64,000 nt of DNA from Candidatus Poribacteria bacterium (lineage in GTDB: Bacteria > Poribacteria > WGA-4E > PCPOR2b): contig JAJEAL010000087.1 in assembly GCA_022822785.1 (NCBI GenBank), forward strand, positions 1-64,000, given 5' to 3'. Below, piece after piece: positions 2,964 to 21,266 of this stretch. The notes under the pieces were generated by a model. The model searched no databases and was not told the origin of the DNA. It saw only the letters and a program-made list of their open reading frames with translations. The translations under genes and the position numbers were made by a program. Within the stretch, counting starts at the first letter, position 1, and each line of letters starts with the position of its first letter.

Positions 2964-5900
2964 TCACTTTGCGAGGAATTCATAATACTGATCAACCATG
3001 CTCCGGTATTCAGGCGGCACATCCTCTTTAAGCACCTGTGCGAGTTGCTTCTTTTCCTGAATCGTAGTGAGGCGTTCTTCAATTGCTCGCTCAAGTTTCC
3101 TGAGTTCGCGCAGAGAAAAATCGTAGACGGGAAACGGTGCTCTCCGGGTGCCCGGACGATTGTTCATGGCACGGATCGCGTCAAGCCAGAGCTCTCTGAG
3201 TTCACGGTCTGACTCCGCACCGCCCACCTGTGCGCTCTCATCCCCTTGTCCCTCGCCTTGTCCCTGTGCCTCCATTGCCGCTTGGGCGCGCTCCTGTATC
3301 TGTTCCTGCTGCTCAGACAACTGTTGCTGCCGGGCTTCTTGTTCAGGCGTTAGCGGCGTTTCTTGGTTGTCCATCGCCTCAAGCTCACGTTGGATATCCT
3401 CCATCTGGGCTTGCCAACTCTCAATCTGGTCCAACGCTGCGTCGAGTCGCTCCTCCTCAGTCTCCGCTAGATTTGTCCGCGCTTGCTGGAGGTCATTTCG
3501 TGCCTCTAAGAGGGTGTCGAGCACCTCCTGCTGCTCCCACTCTGAGGATTGGAAGTTCCGCCACTGTAATGCCCGCTGCGCGTCCTCCATATTTTCAGAC
3601 ACCTGCTCCTCGATAATACGACGATTTGCGTCCGCAACGTTTCGTGCCGCTTCCGGTTCATCCTCGCTCAGTGCCTCGCGCAGGTTCGAGAGATTCCGTT
3701 GCAACCGCTCGAGGTCTCGACGCAGGAACCGCTGTTGATTCGCCAACTCAGAAGCATTCCGTAGATCTTCAACTCCCATGTTGTTCTGTCGGTCTTCTTC
3801 CACAAGGGTTTCTGTCTGTTCCCGGACCTCCGACTGGTCAGCCATAAGTTGGTCGAGCGCTTCCGTCACATCCTCAAGCGCTTGATCGGTATATTGTGCG
3901 GCGACCTTCTCAAGGTCCTCGATTGCCTGCTGAAGGTTTTCTTCCGCTTTCTGCCCTTTCGCAGCGCCCATCTGCGGCTGTCCATCCCTCATGCTCTCTG
4001 ACGCTGCCTGCATATTCTCAGATGCCTGCTGCAGCGCTTCGCCCGCCTGAGTCATACGCTGCCCAGTATTGCCCTCGCCAGCACCTTGCCCGGAGGACTG
4101 TCCCATCTGTTGCGCTTGCTCTGCCATCTGCTGAGCTTGTCCCGCTAGCTGTTGCTCCCGCTGGCTATTTTGCTGCATCTCTCGCTGTGAAGGCTGCCCC
4201 TCCCGCGCTAGCTGTTGGCTCTGCTCCGTGAGTTGTTCCTGTTGAGAGAGCATATCTCTCGCTTGATCCAATAGCTCCTGCGTCCCCTCGCGCATCTGCT
4301 CATCTAATTCGTTTTCATCCTGCTCAATGGTGTCTTGGAGATCCTCCATATCCATCTCTATATTATCAGCAGCTGCTTGGCTGCCGCCCAATCGCATCTG
4401 TGTCAACACCTTGTCCAACTCCATCATGGCTTTGGTAAGGAGTTCGAGAGCGTCCTGTTCGTGCGGAAGTGCTGCTTTCGGCTTGACGGCATGGAGTTCA
4501 CCGCTCGCTTCACCCATCTTGGCGACAGCTTCCTCCAAATTCATCAACATCTCGGGATCTACATTCGCATCGCGCATCGACATACTCAACTCATCGGTCA
4601 CCCGCTGCGTTTTATCTTTAAGCTGGTTTTGCTCATCGCCTATCTTTCTGACAGCAGCTTGATAATCCTCTGTCATCGGGGACGGACGTGAGTGGAGGTG
4701 CTTCCATGTGTTCTTGATAATTGTCCGTTGATCCGCGATTAGGTTCGGGAAAGGTTGCCCCTCTTGTGCTTGCTGCCCCTCTGCATCCATCTGCATAAAC
4801 CGTTCATTGAATGGGCGTACCTCAATGAAATAGAGTTCAGAGGTGCCGGTCCCTGGGCCCGTCCGCGTATTGTTATCGGTGGCTAGAGCATAGTACGAGA
4901 TAAGTTCCCCCGGCTCCACATCGAGCTCTTCGAGATAGAAAACGTAGGCACCGGAGATTACCTTTTTCTCTTCAACCTCGACGGTCTCCGCGTCCAACAC
5001 TTGCGGTTCACCCGATCCGATACTGTACATCAGCGTCAGGTTTTCAACACCGTAATCGTCCACCGCTTCCGCAACGACTTTGACCTCTTCAAGCTTTGTG
5101 GCTTTGATATCCCTACCCGGCTCTCTGATAACGACCTCAGGCGGTTCATCGGGGAGGGCGGTAATGGTGTATTCAATCGGCACCTGGTTATTAAAGCCAT
5201 CGACGCACAGTAGTTTAACGGTATATTTCCCATCGTTCAGCACATCAAGCGTCGTGGTGAGCGTGCGCCCGTCGGAGATAAGCATGGGTATCGCATCTTG
5301 CCCGTCCACTGTGAGGGGCGCTGACTCGATGGCTTTATTCGTCGTGATGCGGATTTCTGCTTGGGACCCAGCGACAGCGCGGATGTTCCCCTCCCCTTGC
5401 TGCGTAATCGGGCTCAGTTGCGTGTATTCTGGATAGGTGTAAGTGACTTCAACGGCCGTAACTTTAGGCATGTCAAACACTTCAACCGTGTAACGCTCCG
5501 ATTCTACCCCATTCGTTGTTACATAGTATTCCATGTTTTCATTGATGTTGAAGATTTCGTAGCCAAACCTACCCTTTTCGCCCTCGATTTGAATCATATC
5601 AATTTCTTGATACCCCTTCTGTTTCCCCTCGCTTGCGGGGGGAAGGGGGGTGGTGCCAGCACCTGAATCTTCCTTTGTATAAATGAGCCGCGCTTTATCG
5701 GCAGCTTTGCCGGTCACTGCGGCATTAATAGCGAGACTTCGACCCCGTAAAATACGAGCGCTCCCCGGTTCAACGGTCAGCTTTGTCGTAAACACCGGCT
5801 CGGTCTTTTCCCAAGGACTCAATATGCGATTCAGAGAAGTGTTAAGCTCGGTCGGAAAAACCGTGGCTATAAGCACACATCCGGCAAGCACTGCGACCGC

Positions 5901-7631: not shown

Positions 7632-8330
7632 TTAATTAATCGTCATTGCACATCGGAATCCGAAATCGCTGAACTGCTTCTCAGGAGCGAGGCTACTCCG
7701 CGCTGCACAACGGGCAAAGCGAACCCTATGCCGCCATGACCCGCCTCGCGCCACACGGCGATTGCTGTGTCTTGGACCGGTCGGATTGCGATTCGGCGAG
7801 ATTTCGTAGTAAGCTGAATCGTAATTATCAGCACACCATTCGTGAACCCCTTCTGACATGTTGTAGAGCCCATAACCGTTCGGGCCATCCGTCCCCACCG
7901 GGAAATGCGGCGCGTTCCGTCCGCCTACATGGTCCTCGTACAGCTCATCGCCCCATGGATACTCTCTGCCTTCCAATCCACCCCGTGCCGCTTTTTCACG
8001 CTCCGCTTCTGTCGGGAGACGATACGCTTTGCTAGTCAGCTCCTGTAACCATCCGCAATAGGTGACGGCATCATACCAACTGGGACCGACAACCGGTTGG
8101 TCTGGGTGCTGGAATTTGGGTTCACCCCAAAACGGTGGCGGTGGATGGTCTATCGCCTCCATAAAGTGCACATACTCTCGGTTAGTCACGGGGTATCGTG
8201 CCAGCCCGAAGGTATCCACCCACACCCGGTGGACCGGCTGTTCGTTTGCCGCACCGTTGTCGCTTCCCATCAGAAAATCGCCTTCGGGGATGGTAACGAT
8301 ATCGGGCTCAATGAGTTCCGGCGCTCGCAT
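7632..8330 (-). CDS. SUMF1/formylglycine-generating-enzyme-fold protein
   Basis: The 232-residue protein shows the SUMF1 (FGE-sulfatase) pattern from end to end: IPEGDFLMGS near the N-terminus, EQPVHRVWVDTF, PVTNREYVHFM, VSWYDA-like GPSWYDAVTYCGWL, RLPTEAEREKAARGG, YPWGDE, and the C-terminal RVARGGSWRHR...FGFRC. True formylglycine-generating enzymes use a Cys pair near the C-terminus; here one Cys (RFARCAARS) lies in that zone and the last is in GFRC, so activation of sulfatases cannot be asserted. No signal peptide is seen and no sulfatase lies in the window. A near-consensus promoter at 8537-8566 gives it a long leader containing repeat B copy 1. Confidence 0.88.
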   Translation of the reverse strand: MRAPELIEPDIVTIPEGDFLMGSDNGAANEQPVHRVWVDTFGLARYPVTNREYVHFMEAIDHPPPPFWGEPKFQHPDQPVVGPSWYDAVTYCGWLQELTSKAYRLPTEAEREKAARGGLEGREYPWGDELYEDHVGGRNAPHFPVGTDGPNGYGLYNMSEGVHEWCADNYDSAYYEISPNRNPTGPRHSNRRVARGGSWRHRVRFARCAARSSLAPEKQFSDFGFRCAMTIN

Positions 8331-8588: not shown

Positions 8589-9167
8589 ATGGCATGGATC
8601 CGAACTATCCCCGAATCCGAGGCGACAGGCATCGTCAAGAAAGAATATGAAGCGGGAATTGAGCGTGCCGGACGAGTTTACAACATCGTCAAGCTGTTCA
8701 GTATCAAGCCGGAAAGCCTCAAAGTGTTCGTCAATCAGTATAAAATTATCATGTTTGGTCCCTCCAAATTGAGTCGAGCGCAACGGGAGATGATAGCGAC
8801 AGCGGTTTCACAGATCAACACCTGTCGATACTGAGTCCAGGTACACGGCGAAGACCTGCGGGAACAGGTCAAGGAAGATCAACTCGTTCGTCAAATTAAA
8901 ACGGATTTCCAATCTGCGGATTTGGATCCAACCATGCGAGCCATCCTAGAGTTTGCCGAGAAGGTTACCCTCGCTGCCTATACGGTTCAGCCATCAGACC
9001 TGGATCTGCTCAGATCACACGGCTTGGATGACGAAACGATTTTCGATGTCGTCGAGGTTGTCGGGTTCTTCAATTGCATCAACCGGATTGCCGATGCGCT
9101 CGGCGTTGAGTTGGAGGACTTTCTTGACGAGGCAGATCTACCACCGGTGCCGGCAACCGGAGACTAA
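8589..9167 (+). CDS. AhpD-like peroxidase-related protein, predicted selenoprotein (CxxU)
   Basis: Two open segments (8589-8831 and 8835-9167) lie in the same reading frame, separated by a single TGA at 8832-8834. Read through, they give one 192-residue protein of the carboxymuconolactone decarboxylase/AhpD type (peroxidase-related branch): MFGPSKLSRAQREMIATAVS, then C79-R-Y-[TGA82]-V-Q-V-H86, then a conserved helical C-terminal half. Family members read CxYC-V-x-x-H here, so TGA replaces the second redox cysteine. Downstream, 8853-8870 forms a 6-bp stem (GACCTG/CAGGTC) with loop CGGGAA, starting 24 bases after the TGA and with G as second loop base. This matches published bacterial SECIS criteria. 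AhpD-like CxxU selenoproteins are known from marine metagenomes. A nonsense mutation is the alternative. Confidence 0.82.
8853..8870 (+). promoter_or_regulatory. Candidate bacterial SECIS stem-loop
   Basis: Perfect 6-bp stem GACCTG/CAGGTC closed by the hexaloop CGGGAA, located 18-36 bases after the in-frame TGA (8832-8834). The apical loop begins 24 bases after the TGA and carries G at loop positions 2-4, which is what SelB recognition is thought to need. Confidence 0.7.
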
Positions 9168-9916
9168 TGAAAATTGAAATGCCAACCGATCCGAACCTTG
9201 AAAATTACCTCTCCGTTGTCATCAAACAAGGGTTATACCCAAATAAGGGCAATCTTCGTTTCCACTTGAAGACGTTATTCAAAAACATCCCCCTGGAAAA
9301 TAGGCGGGTACTTGATATCGGTGGCGGCAGCGGCTTACACAGCTTCTATGCGGCGTGTATGGAGGCTAAGGAGGTCCTATGTCTCGAACCGGAAACGGAG
9401 GGCAGTCGCTCTGGGATGGGGGCAAGGTTTCGGAAGTTAAGTGAAATCCTCGGATACGATCAGGTAAAATTTGAGCCCGTTACATTTCAAGCCTTTAAGC
9501 CTGTGGACAAGCAGTTCGATATTATCTTACTCCACAATTCGATCAATCACTTAGACGAGACAGCTTGTATCAACCTGCTCAACAGTGAAGAATCGAAGAC
9601 GATTTATCTGAATATGTTCTCAAAACTCAGTTCACTTTCACGCAGTGGGACAAAGTTAATCGTCTGTGATTGCTCACGATATAATTTTTTCGCCTCGCTC
9701 AGAATTGCGAACCCTTTCGCGCCCACGATAGAGTGGCATAAACATCAGGCACCGGAAATCTGGGTAACTCTATTAAGTCAGGTCGGATTCGTCAACCCAA
9801 AGGTTAAGTGGACCGCTTTTAACACACTGCGTTCTCCGGGGCGAGTTCTGTTAGGCAATAAACTGCTCTCCTATTTTCTGCGAAGTCACTTCTGTTTCAC
9901 GATGGAAAAATCGTGA
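9167..9916 (+). CDS. Class I SAM-dependent methyltransferase
   Basis: This 249-residue protein has the SAM-binding motif I VLDIGGGSG (residues 48-56), an acidic end of beta-2 (VLCLEPE) and motif IV-like FDIILLHNSINHL. The C-terminal part, with FFASLRIANPFAPTIEWHKHQ and WVTLLSQVGF, is typical of small-molecule methyltransferases. The substrate is unknown. Its ATG overlaps the TAA stop of the AhpD-like selenoprotein gene (TAATG), so translation is coupled; this supports the upstream frame being translated to the end and not broken at the internal TGA. Whether the two act together is unknown. Confidence 0.85.
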   Translation: MKIEMPTDPNLENYLSVVIKQGLYPNKGNLRFHLKTLFKNIPLENRRVLDIGGGSGLHSFYAACMEAKEVLCLEPETEGSRSGMGARFRKLSEILGYDQVKFEPVTFQAFKPVDKQFDIILLHNSINHLDETACINLLNSEESKTIYLNMFSKLSSLSRSGTKLIVCDCSRYNFFASLRIANPFAPTIEWHKHQAPEIWVTLLSQVGFVNPKVKWTAFNTLRSPGRVLLGNKLLSYFLRSHFCFTMEKS

Positions 9917-11453: not shown

Positions 11454-12203
11454 CTAACCCGCTGTAAACCCGCCGTCAATTGGCAATGCAATCCCTGTCA
11501 CAAAAACAGATTCGTCCGACGCCAAAAACAGCGCACCATAGGCAATCTCCTGTGGTGTGGCGAGACGTTTCATCGGGTGCTGCTCGGCGAGTGCCCGGTA
11601 TTCCTCCTCCGTTTTCAGCACACCGGCTAGAAGCGGGGTTTCGGTGAAACCGGGACAGATGCAGTTGACACGGACATTGCTAGTGGCGTAGTCGAGTGCC
11701 ATCCCCCGTGTCAAATTAGCAACCCCGCCTTTGGTAGCGACGTAAGCTGCACGGGTCGGCGCACCGACAAGTCCGTAGATTGACGCCATGTTGATAATCG
11801 AGCCGCCGCCATTCTTAATCATTTCAGGGATAGCATACTTTGAGCCGAGGAAAACCCCTTTTAGGTTGATGTCAACGCAGCGGTCCCAGTCTTCCTCCAG
11901 TAAATCCACGACAGGTAGACGCATCGCAATACCTGCGTTGTTGAACATTACATCCAACCTGCCATAGGCATCAACTGTCGATTTGACCAGTGACTGTATA
12001 TCGGCAGCCACTGTTACATCGGTGAGAACGAACATCGCTTCGCCGCCGTCAGCGTTAATCTGGTCAACCACTTCGGTCCCCCCTGCTTCGTTCAGATCTG
12101 CCACGACAACCTTTGCTCCCTCCTTAGCAAATAGGAGCGCCGTTGCCTGTCCGATGCCGGAGGCAGCGCCGGTGATGATTGCAACTTTACCTTCGAGTCT
12201 CAT
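11454..12203 (-). CDS. Short-chain dehydrogenase/reductase
   Basis: A classical SDR of 249 residues: cofactor motif TGAASGIG (about 11-18), NNAG (about 89-92), catalytic Ser in NMASIYG, and YVATK with catalytic Tyr and Lys, then the family-typical CPGFTETPLL and DGGFTAG C-terminus. Asp at the end of beta-2 (VVADLNE) favours NAD over NADP. The substrate is probably a sugar or sugar-acid alcohol, inferred from neighbours: it lies 16 bases downstream of an FAH-fold enzyme in the same orientation, a pairing common in sugar-acid and aromatic-acid degradation operons. RBS GGGGAGA is upstream of ATG 12203. Confidence 0.92.
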   Translation of the reverse strand: MRLEGKVAIITGAASGIGQATALLFAKEGAKVVVADLNEAGGTEVVDQINADGGEAMFVLTDVTVAADIQSLVKSTVDAYGRLDVMFNNAGIAMRLPVVDLLEEDWDRCVDINLKGVFLGSKYAIPEMIKNGGGSIINMASIYGLVGAPTRAAYVATKGGVANLTRGMALDYATSNVRVNCICPGFTETPLLAGVLKTEEEYRALAEQHPMKRLATPQEIAYGALFLASDESVFVTGIALPIDGGFTAG

Positions 12204-12219
12204 AGTGATTCATTCTCCC

Positions 12220-13245
12220 CTATTGCTTCTCCTGCCACGCCGCTGGATTCTCCGATTTCTCCTCAATCTGGTTACGGAGCAACCCAATCCCTTCTATCTC
12301 TAACTCAATAACATCGCCGGGCTGAATCCACCGATCTAACTCCCAACCACACCCTTTGCCCACTGTGCCGGATCCGAGAAAATCCCCAACACAAAGCGTT
12401 TCGGACTGCGACACGAAGGAAATCATCTCCGCGAAAGTGTAATACATATCCGACGTATTGCCGTCCGCCCAAACCTCGCCGTTGACCCGTGCAATCATCC
12501 GTATGTTATACGGATCGTCGATTTCATCAGGCGTGACGAGGCAGGGGCCCATAATATTGCTGTTGTCGAAATCTTTCCCTTTGGCAGGACCAAGCGCCAA
12601 CGTCATGTGACGAAACTGAATATCACGCGCGCTGATGTCGTTATAGATGGTGTAGCCGCCGATATAGTTTGGTGCATCTTCGACCGAGATATTCTTCCCT
12701 TCCTTACCGATATAAACGCCCCATTCCAGCTCAAAGTCAAGTTTGTCGGTGTAGTTGGGCCACGTTACCGGCGCCTCGTGTCCAGCGATGGAAGCGGGGC
12801 TCGTGCTACCACGATAGTAGTTTGGCAGCTTAAACCATTCGGGAGAAATCTCCTTGCCAGTAATCAGGGCGGCGGCATCCATGTGCGTCTTGAATACGCC
12901 GAAATCCCGTAAACTGGCAGGACGCGGAAATGGTGCGAGCAGCTTCACCTGATCAACCAGATAAACAATCTGTTCGCCTCGGATGCCGGTGGGGTTGGCC
13001 CCGTCAAGGTGTTCAAGACTCGCCTGCGCTGCCTTTCTCGACCTTTCTCCCCGTTCAAAGTATTGGATCATGTCCGATGGCAGAATAGCATCCGCACTCT
13101 GATACGCAGCGGATTGCCCCTGTGTCTCTGAAAGATGGAGCGCATAGGCAGAATTGAGATCGACGATTTGGTTGCCTTCAATCATCGCGCCGAGTCGCTG
13201 CTGTTTCCCCAGTTGTGTTGTGATTTCAAAAGTAACCAGTTTCAT
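12220..13245 (-). CDS. Fumarylacetoacetate hydrolase (FAH)-fold protein
   Basis: This 341-residue protein belongs to the FAH superfamily, whose members cleave C-C bonds in, or hydrate, 2-keto acids with a divalent metal. Visible features are the metal-binding DFELEWGVYIGKEG segment, GGYTIYNDISARDIQFRH, KGKDFDNSNIMGPCLVTPDE, and the C-terminal GSGTVGKGCGWELDRWIQPGDVIE. ATG at 13245 is preferred to that at 13251, because GAGG lies 8 bases before it and would sit only one base before the other. It starts a probable minus-strand unit with the SDR and perhaps the cupin gene. This would suit a non-phosphorylating sugar-acid pathway ending in a 2-keto-3-deoxy acid, but the substrate is unproven. Confidence 0.88.
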   Translation of the reverse strand: MKLVTFEITTQLGKQQRLGAMIEGNQIVDLNSAYALHLSETQGQSAAYQSADAILPSDMIQYFERGERSRKAAQASLEHLDGANPTGIRGEQIVYLVDQVKLLAPFPRPASLRDFGVFKTHMDAAALITGKEISPEWFKLPNYYRGSTSPASIAGHEAPVTWPNYTDKLDFELEWGVYIGKEGKNISVEDAPNYIGGYTIYNDISARDIQFRHMTLALGPAKGKDFDNSNIMGPCLVTPDEIDDPYNIRMIARVNGEVWADGNTSDMYYTFAEMISFVSQSETLCVGDFLGSGTVGKGCGWELDRWIQPGDVIELEIEGIGLLRNQIEEKSENPAAWQEKQ

Positions 13246-13595: not shown

Positions 13596-14441
13596 CTAGC
13601 GCACGTGCTCCTCTCCACGATGTTCCATAATCCACTGTTTCAGCGGAACATCTTCATCCGTTGGCTGCCACCACCCCTTGATATCCACCCCATCCCCAAG
13701 GATCTGCCGACGGATCGGATCACATTTGGCAAGCAGTTCAGGCGGCATCACATTGTAGTCCAGCCCACGCAGCCAACGGTAACTGTAGCCGATGAACAAC
13801 ACCTTCCGCGTTACGTCCGAAAAATTCCAACCACGGGAGTGCCATAACCGGCGGTCAAATAGCACCGCTGTCCCCGGTTTAACCTGCAATTCGATTGCGC
13901 CCTCTGGATCGCCGTCCGGATCGCTCTGAGGGGGGCGCTCATCCAGTTTGTGGCTACCCGGCACGATCCGCATCGCACCTCGGTCCGGTCCCATCACATC
14001 GCTGAACCAGTAGCTCACTTTGAGAGAGAGGCGCGGATGTGGACGCTCCATTTCCTGCACCGGCCTGCCCCCATCCTGATGCCACCCCGCCCCCTTTCGG
14101 GTTCGCTCTACATCGGGGCCCTCCGGCGGATAAACGATGAGGTGAGAGATATAAAGCTGAATGTTCCAACCGAGAATATCCCACAGCAACGGAAATACCT
14201 TCGGGTTGTCAAGCAACTCAAGAAACAAATCATCTGCGACGATAGTGCGAAACTTCGCCATCAGGGCGTGTGGTCCGAGTCCCCGTTTCTTTCGTTCCTC
14301 TGCATCAATTCGATCAATAGCAATAGTCATCTTGTCAACCATCTCCGGAGATAGGGCATCTTCTACAATCAGGTAACCCTTATCGTTAAACGTCCGGAGC
14401 TGCTCATCAGTCGCACAGTATTTTAGCCATTCTTTATCCAT
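13596..14441 (-). CDS. Phytanoyl-CoA dioxygenase (PhyH)-family oxygenase
   Basis: A 281-residue Fe(II)/2-oxoglutarate-dependent oxygenase of the PhyH type with an intact facial triad: the proximal motif WHQDGG (H-x-D) near residue 120, the core GAMRIVPGSHKL, and the distal His in RRLWHSRGWN with Arg 11 residues on for 2-oxoglutarate. It differs from the PhyH protein at 1.3-2.1 kb, which lacks the Asp. The substrate is unknown; such proteins are numerous in genomes of this type. It stands alone, with its own RBS (AAAGGAG) and a terminator downstream. Confidence 0.9.
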   Translation of the reverse strand: MDKEWLKYCATDEQLRTFNDKGYLIVEDALSPEMVDKMTIAIDRIDAEERKKRGLGPHALMAKFRTIVADDLFLELLDNPKVFPLLWDILGWNIQLYISHLIVYPPEGPDVERTRKGAGWHQDGGRPVQEMERPHPRLSLKVSYWFSDVMGPDRGAMRIVPGSHKLDERPPQSDPDGDPEGAIELQVKPGTAVLFDRRLWHSRGWNFSDVTRKVLFIGYSYRWLRGLDYNVMPPELLAKCDPIRRQILGDGVDIKGWWQPTDEDVPLKQWIMEHRGEEHVR

Positions 14442-20150: not shown

Positions 20151-21266
20151 ATGAAATACGACATACTACTTAAAGGTGGAACTGTTGTCGATCCCGCGCA
20201 GAAATTGCATGACCTGCGTGACGTCGCAATCCTTGATGGAAAGATTGCAGCAATTGAGGAAAATATTTCTGCAAGAGAGGCGACGCAAACCGTCTTCGTC
20301 GATGGAAAATATGTCACACCCGGCTTGGTGGACATCCATGCCCATGTCTACGACGGTGTCACGACATGGGGAGTTAAAGCCGATCCAGTCTGTACCACGA
20401 CCGGTGTCACGACAATCGTTGATGCCGGGAGTCCGGGATGGGCGACATTCCCCGGTTTTCGGGACTATATTGTCCAACCGGCGCAAACACACATACTCAC
20501 CTATGTCCATATTTCTGGTATCGGTCTTGTTTATGGACCAGTTGGCGAGATGCGGGAACTTGAATACGCACAGCCGGGAAGGGTCGCCGACACTATCATG
20601 CAGAATCGTGACATCACCGTCGGTGTGAAGGTGCGTCAGGGCAAATTTCAGGTCGGCGATAATGGCGTTGAGCCGCTGAAACTCGCAATCGAAGCCGCTG
20701 AGCGGGCCGATACAGCGGTCATGGTACATATCGGGACCGGGGTCCCACTTCCCGATGTGCTAAAACTATTGCGCCCCGGCGATATTGTCACACACTGCTT
20801 TCAAGGAAACGGCGACTGTATCATTGATGATAAAGGACGGGTTATCCCCGAAGCGTGGTCTGCCCGCAACGATGGAGTTATCTTCGATGTCGGACATGGG
20901 GGCGGGAGCTTTAACTATGAGGTCGCTCAACGCGCAATGGAACAAGGATTCCTTTCCGATGTCATCAGTACTGATCTGCACTCCGGCAATATCAACGGAC
21001 CTGTCTACGACCTACCGACCACGCTATCAAAATTCTTAACGCTTGGACTCTCACTTGAGGAGGTCATCGAAAAATCGACAGTTGCCGCAGCAAAAGCAGT
21101 TGGACGTGAGGAGGAGCTCGGTCACCTCGAAGTTGGAACAATCGCTGATGTCGCTGTTTTTGATCTCATCGAGGGCGAATTTGAGCTTTTCGATACACAC
21201 CGCACGATGATTATTGCCAACCAGAAATTGCAAGCGGACTTAACAATCCGTGGGGGGAAGCTGTGA
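20151..21266 (+). CDS. Amidohydrolase/deacetylase, EF_0837-like
   Basis: The 371-residue enzyme belongs to the metal-dependent amidohydrolase superfamily, dihydroorotase-like branch. It shows the N-terminal KGGTVVDP and the C-terminal GTIADVAVFDL of the composite beta domain, HxH in VDIHAHVYDG (about residues 63-65), a candidate carbamylated Lys in TVGVKVRQGKF, His in VMVHIG and VTHCFQG, and Asp in ISTDLHSGN. The ISTDLHSGN and GLSLEEVIEKST segments resemble the EF_0837/AHA_3915 deacetylases. RBS AGGAGG stands about 10 bases ahead of ATG. The true substrate is not known. Confidence 0.88.
   Translation: MKYDILLKGGTVVDPAQKLHDLRDVAILDGKIAAIEENISAREATQTVFVDGKYVTPGLVDIHAHVYDGVTTWGVKADPVCTTTGVTTIVDAGSPGWATFPGFRDYIVQPAQTHILTYVHISGIGLVYGPVGEMRELEYAQPGRVADTIMQNRDITVGVKVRQGKFQVGDNGVEPLKLAIEAAERADTAVMVHIGTGVPLPDVLKLLRPGDIVTHCFQGNGDCIIDDKGRVIPEAWSARNDGVIFDVGHGGGSFNYEVAQRAMEQGFLSDVISTDLHSGNINGPVYDLPTTLSKFLTLGLSLEEVIEKSTVAAAKAVGREEELGHLEVGTIADVAVFDLIEGEFELFDTHRTMIIANQKLQADLTIRGGKL

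Follow-up and report, generated by a model that had tools for sequence, protein, structure and literature searches.

A predicted selenocysteine-containing AhpD-like peroxidase gene in Candidatus Poribacteria

In the stretch of DNA analysed here (64,000 nucleotides of a Candidatus Poribacteria contig, hereafter the window), the reading frame at 8589-9167 on the plus strand contains an internal TGA, which, as judged from sequence comparison, almost certainly encodes selenocysteine (Sec, U) at the active site of a peroxidase-like enzyme. We infer both the Sec insertion and the catalytic roles, and put at about 0.97 the probability that this is an AhpD-like thiol/selenol peroxidase of Poribacteria that contains Sec and belongs to the TIGR01926/COG2128 family. 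It is taken as a genuine selenoprotein gene because the TGA is conserved, the Sec machinery is encoded in the genome, selection is seen on both sides of the codon, the SECIS hairpin covaries, TGA otherwise serves as a stop and the spacing of the active-site residues is that of AhpD. The initial annotation had proposed a probable selenoprotein of AhpD-like type, and the conserved TGA, the covarying SECIS and the presence of selA, selB, selC and selD bear this out.

The frame specifies 192 residues followed by a TAA terminator (9165-9167), and its sole internal stop is the TGA at 8832-8834, codon 82. When TGA is read as Sec, the product matches TIGR01926 (peroxidase-related) over residues 3-174 with an E value of 1.9e-45, and its score of 154.8 bits against a curated cut-off of 81.8 makes it a member of that family; a Pfam CMD match (1.2e-12) also spans the Sec site. 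Searched separately, the two halves match their respective parts of TIGR01926 (residues 1-81, E 4.1e-14; the half after TGA, E 7.2e-23), and the profile positions of the two matches run consecutively across the TGA, as expected from the earlier proposal that both halves form one AhpD/CMD-type protein in the same frame. Two further features pointed out at that stage, the lack of any other stop downstream of TGA and the coupling to the next gene by TAATG, in which the TAA overlaps the ATG at 9167, were likewise seen. The same layout is found in 32 Poribacteria orthologues, and a genome search found no second copy of the gene. An AlphaFold model built from a 15-row alignment was poor (pLDDT 59).

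Which residues would make up the active site? The protein carries a CxxC/CxxU redox motif with a downstream histidine, C79-R-Y-U82-x3-H86, and thus the TGA does fall, as first noticed, at the second cysteine position of the motif to give CRYU. Invariant in the alignment are Glu67 (8787-8789), Cys79 (8823-8825), position 82 (Cys or Sec) and His86 (8844-8846), all on the plus strand. Cys79 would be the partner (resolving) cysteine of the CxxU pair, and Glu67 and His86 are assigned as putative proton-relay residues by their spacing to AhpD Glu118 and His137 or to PA0269 Glu36 and His55. In AhpD, the proton relay is formed by Glu118, Cys130, His132, Cys133 and His137 (PMC3141380). The spacing of E67/C79/Y81/U82/H86 is identical to that of these five residues of the Mycobacterium tuberculosis protein and also to that of Glu36/Cys48/Tyr50/Cys51/His55 of PA0269, and therefore Sec occupies the place of Cys133.

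A working model of synthesis and catalysis would be as follows. SelB-GTP with Sec-tRNA-Sec would bind an mRNA hairpin at 8853-8870 as the ribosome reaches the UGA at 8832, and Sec would be delivered at this UGA to complete CRYU. By analogy with AhpD, the chemistry is probably that of a peroxidase: the U82 selenol, activated by the E67/H86 relay, would attack a hydroperoxide, Cys79 would resolve the selenenic acid to yield an Se-S bond, and a thiol donor would then reduce this bond.

Is the enzyme really a peroxidase? The five relay positions of AhpD are all kept with exact spacing, and PA0269, an AhpD-like protein with the same CxYC-xxx-H site, reduces H2O2 in vitro, if slowly (PMC3141380); both points speak against the tentative alternative that the gene encodes a real selenoprotein with another substrate, a CMD-fold thiol/selenol oxidoreductase working, for example, with a methyltransferase or an SDR oxidoreductase. 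This alternative is the less probable of the two; in its favour, the term "peroxidase-related" in TIGR01926 names a family rather than the outcome of an assay, and the neighbouring gene differs by clade. The next gene in the window (9167-9916, plus strand), whose start overlaps the TAA of the selenoprotein gene, encodes a SAM-dependent methyltransferase-like protein (Pfam Methyltransf_31, 1.7e-06), and this arrangement is conserved within the genus of the window but not in other Poribacteria. In most Poribacteria outside the genus (L033, L037, L051 and most other loci), a gene for an SDR-family oxidoreductase lies directly downstream, about 555-585 bases past the start of the selenoprotein gene, and the SDR protein may be a functional partner. 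Since a methyltransferase is found in one genus and an SDR in most others, there is no single conserved partner. A narrower proposal, which we consider doubtful, is that the selenoprotein serves Poribacteria as redox component of a clade-specific pathway, its partner being the methyltransferase, translationally coupled to it, in the one genus and the SDR in most others; it would then act on one particular metabolite and not on peroxides in general.

Some other genes in the surroundings were also recorded. Upstream on the opposite strand (window 7632-8330, minus strand) lies a gene, kept in the genus, for a protein with a formylglycine-generating-enzyme/EgtB-like sulfatase-modifying domain, which gives a weak match, far under the cut-off, to the selenoneine synthase SenA. 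Phytanoyl-CoA-dioxygenase-like genes, recognized by eye at 1273-2091 and 13596-14441 of the window (both minus strand) and at 3176-4048 (minus) and 11896-12693 (plus) of another locus (L010), are apparently expanded in this genome.

Returning to the selenoprotein gene, conservation of the internal TGA has been followed in two sets of sequences, a scan of named genomes and a search of 59 related genomes, which share many contigs and so are not independent. In an alignment of 81 homologues, the Sec column holds TGA in 73 and TGC in 8, with no other codon, so that the check suggested in the initial annotation returned Cys or Sec in every homologue. All 32 Poribacteria rows, the window included, have TGA, as do most relatives in about ten other phyla, among them Acidobacteriota, Latescibacterota, Gemmatimonadota, Planctomycetota, Nitrospinota, Methylomirabilota, Myxococcota, Bdellovibrionota and Actinomycetota. 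The full-length orthologues in the 59 related genomes almost always contain exactly one TGA; base-by-base reading of 30 loci placed it at codon 82 or 83, within CxYU, in every case, and CxYU was also read in distant orthologues (about 36% identical) of other Poribacteria families. No match to the gene was obtained in 20 of the 59 genomes, and therefore the gene is dispensable. On a quick tree, two Sec/Cys changes are needed and the 32 Poribacteria copies form one clade. A TGC version from a Latescibacterota genome of Lake Baikal (L127:3001-3558) is nested among Sec versions and still has their SECIS-like hairpin (ACGCAGA-GTT-TCTGCGT), as would be expected had Cys taken the place of Sec only recently.

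This pattern leaves little room for the view that the gene is a pseudogene in which a nonsense mutation has made TGA a genuine stop and the part behind it is degenerating. In comparisons within the genus and with the nearest neighbour, pN ranges from 0.04 to 0.12 and pS from 0.26 to 0.63, with similar values on both sides of the TGA; on these substitution ratios, purifying selection is acting on both halves, as strongly after the TGA as before it, and the window copy is without any further stop. Decay of this kind does occur in one copy of the same genus (OY282444.1; L028/L068, L028:1501-2001), in which an in-frame TAG lies inside the SECIS stem, matched by a change in the other arm that preserves the pair, and a deletion fuses the 3' end of the selenoprotein gene to the methyltransferase gene. 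The gene was lost here recently, in a single species, and this is no argument against function elsewhere: stray stops in close relatives, which the initial annotation had named as evidence against a selenoprotein, are found in L028/L068 alone, and all other close relatives are intact. With the TGA identical in all 32 Poribacteria and in other phyla, and the downstream frame conserved as well, the pseudogene reading was rejected as highly improbable. Still less probable is a sequencing or assembly error turning TGC or TGT into TGA: the same TGA recurs in dozens of independent assemblies (about 30), single-contig chromosomes included, which makes a base error implausible.

How would the UGA be distinguished from a stop codon? 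A candidate bacterial SECIS hairpin is located at 8853-8870 on the plus strand, with a 6-bp stem (8853-8858/8865-8870, GACCTG/CAGGTC) closing a 6-nt loop (8859-8864, CGGGAA) and a folding energy of -7.8 kcal/mol. The published limits for bSECIS elements are a stem of 4-16 bp, a loop of 3-9 nt, a spacing of 16-37 nt, an MFE of at most -7.5 and a G at loop position 1 or 2 (PMC13188914), and the hairpin, with G at loop position 2 and a spacing of 24 nt, lies within all of them, as the bSECIS check proposed at the outset was to establish. The stem-loop, its loop G and its range had been described correctly in the initial annotation, but the distance of 24 bases after TGA is that of the loop; the stem starts at 18 bases. 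When the window copy is folded, the hairpin alone has a z score of -3.5, and the whole 52-base stretch, at -0.34, is not unusually stable; thus folding of a single sequence proves little, and it is covariation across relatives that does. The stem is paired in 99.4% of cells across 29 distinct sequences from Poribacteria, a figure that drops to 35-43% when the partner is slid by one base. Of the six pairs, three show two-sided changes, in 22 cells where shuffling gives 5.3 on average, and the covariation score is 0.377 against 0.132 after shuffling. The hairpin has the same position in Acidobacteriota and Planctomycetota; Latescibacterota, Actinomycetota and others have a different hairpin, nearer the UGA.

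The genome (5.6 Mb in 147 contigs, 96% complete) was searched for the four genes of the Sec machinery named in the initial annotation, and all were found. selA (TIGR00474, 589.6 bits; cut-off 267.9), selB (TIGR00475, 367 bits; cut-off 242) and selC, the tRNA-Sec gene with anticodon TCA (74.6 bits; Rfam gathering score 47), adjoin in that order on contig G000:C141, and selD is on contig C25 (G000:C25:56139-57062; L020:1501-2424, minus strand). The selD gene itself has an in-frame TGA (TCGU motif), and is thus a selenoprotein SelD. In the set of relatives, selB is present in 56 of the 59 genomes. That TGA has been reassigned throughout the genome (code 4 or 25) instead of encoding Sec, a reading for which no support was found, has a very small probability and was rejected, since TGA stops occur in the same genome (14 of the 52 window frames of at least 200 codons end in TGA), a relative (L026) ends this very gene with TGA where the window has TAA, and tRNA-Sec (anticodon TCA) and selB are present. 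A codon-usage scan of the window for further genes with in-frame TGA gave no convincing second candidate: the top matches, for example those at 21264 and 2964, are normal ends of genes with another frame behind them, and the majority of the rest are located opposite a larger gene.

What does this gene add to what is known? The first report of AhpD-like selenoproteins of COG2128 with a CxxU motif came from the Sargasso Sea in 2005 (PMC1088965); they were found to be abundant in Global Ocean Sampling data in 2008 (PMC2398784), and a 2026 review lists them under TIGR01926 (PMC13188914). The initial annotation made no mention of this earlier record of the family. A 2017 sponge paper noted SelA and SelB together in most of its bins of sponge symbionts, which belong to various phyla; a search of a library of papers for Poribacteria and selenoproteins found none describing a selenoprotein gene in this phylum. 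A conserved, predicted UGA-Sec gene is thereby documented across a sponge-associated candidate phylum with full Sec machinery. As gene callers of the standard kind cut or split the gene at the TGA, it is likely to be mis-annotated in Poribacteria MAGs, and the 32 orthologues with their well-supported SECIS can be used for annotation. No new class of mechanism is opened.

Among known systems, the gene resembles most the COG2128/TIGR01926 CxxU family, with which it shares the same model, Sec as the second redox residue and a downstream bSECIS; unlike the copies of the earlier reports, which came from marine metagenomes, those of Poribacteria form a clade of their own of 32 rows. The solved Cys-containing TIGR01926-type proteins (2pfx, 3c1l, 2prr and 2oyo) align as homologues from residue 17 to residue 178, a stretch that includes the Sec site, but 2pfx, 3c1l and 2prr have Cys aligned with the Sec position. 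NF041238, AhpD_rel_CFYUT (seleno)protein, is also AhpD-related with a CxxU motif, but describes a longer protein of 357 positions; the window protein scores 72.3 bits against its cut-off of 175, and therefore is not a member. Nor is it a true AhpD (TIGR00777, 23.7 bits against a cut-off of 191.95). With M. tuberculosis AhpD and Pseudomonas aeruginosa PA0269 it shares the E-x11-C-x2-C/U-x3-H spacing, and with PA0269 (Cys-Ala-Tyr-Cys) also the Tyr that precedes the second redox residue, whereas both proteins have Cys in place of Sec and their kinship outside the catalytic hairpin is distant. Because the CxxU family has been described since 2005, the Poribacteria gene is not categorically new, but a new and well-supported member of that family in a candidate phylum.
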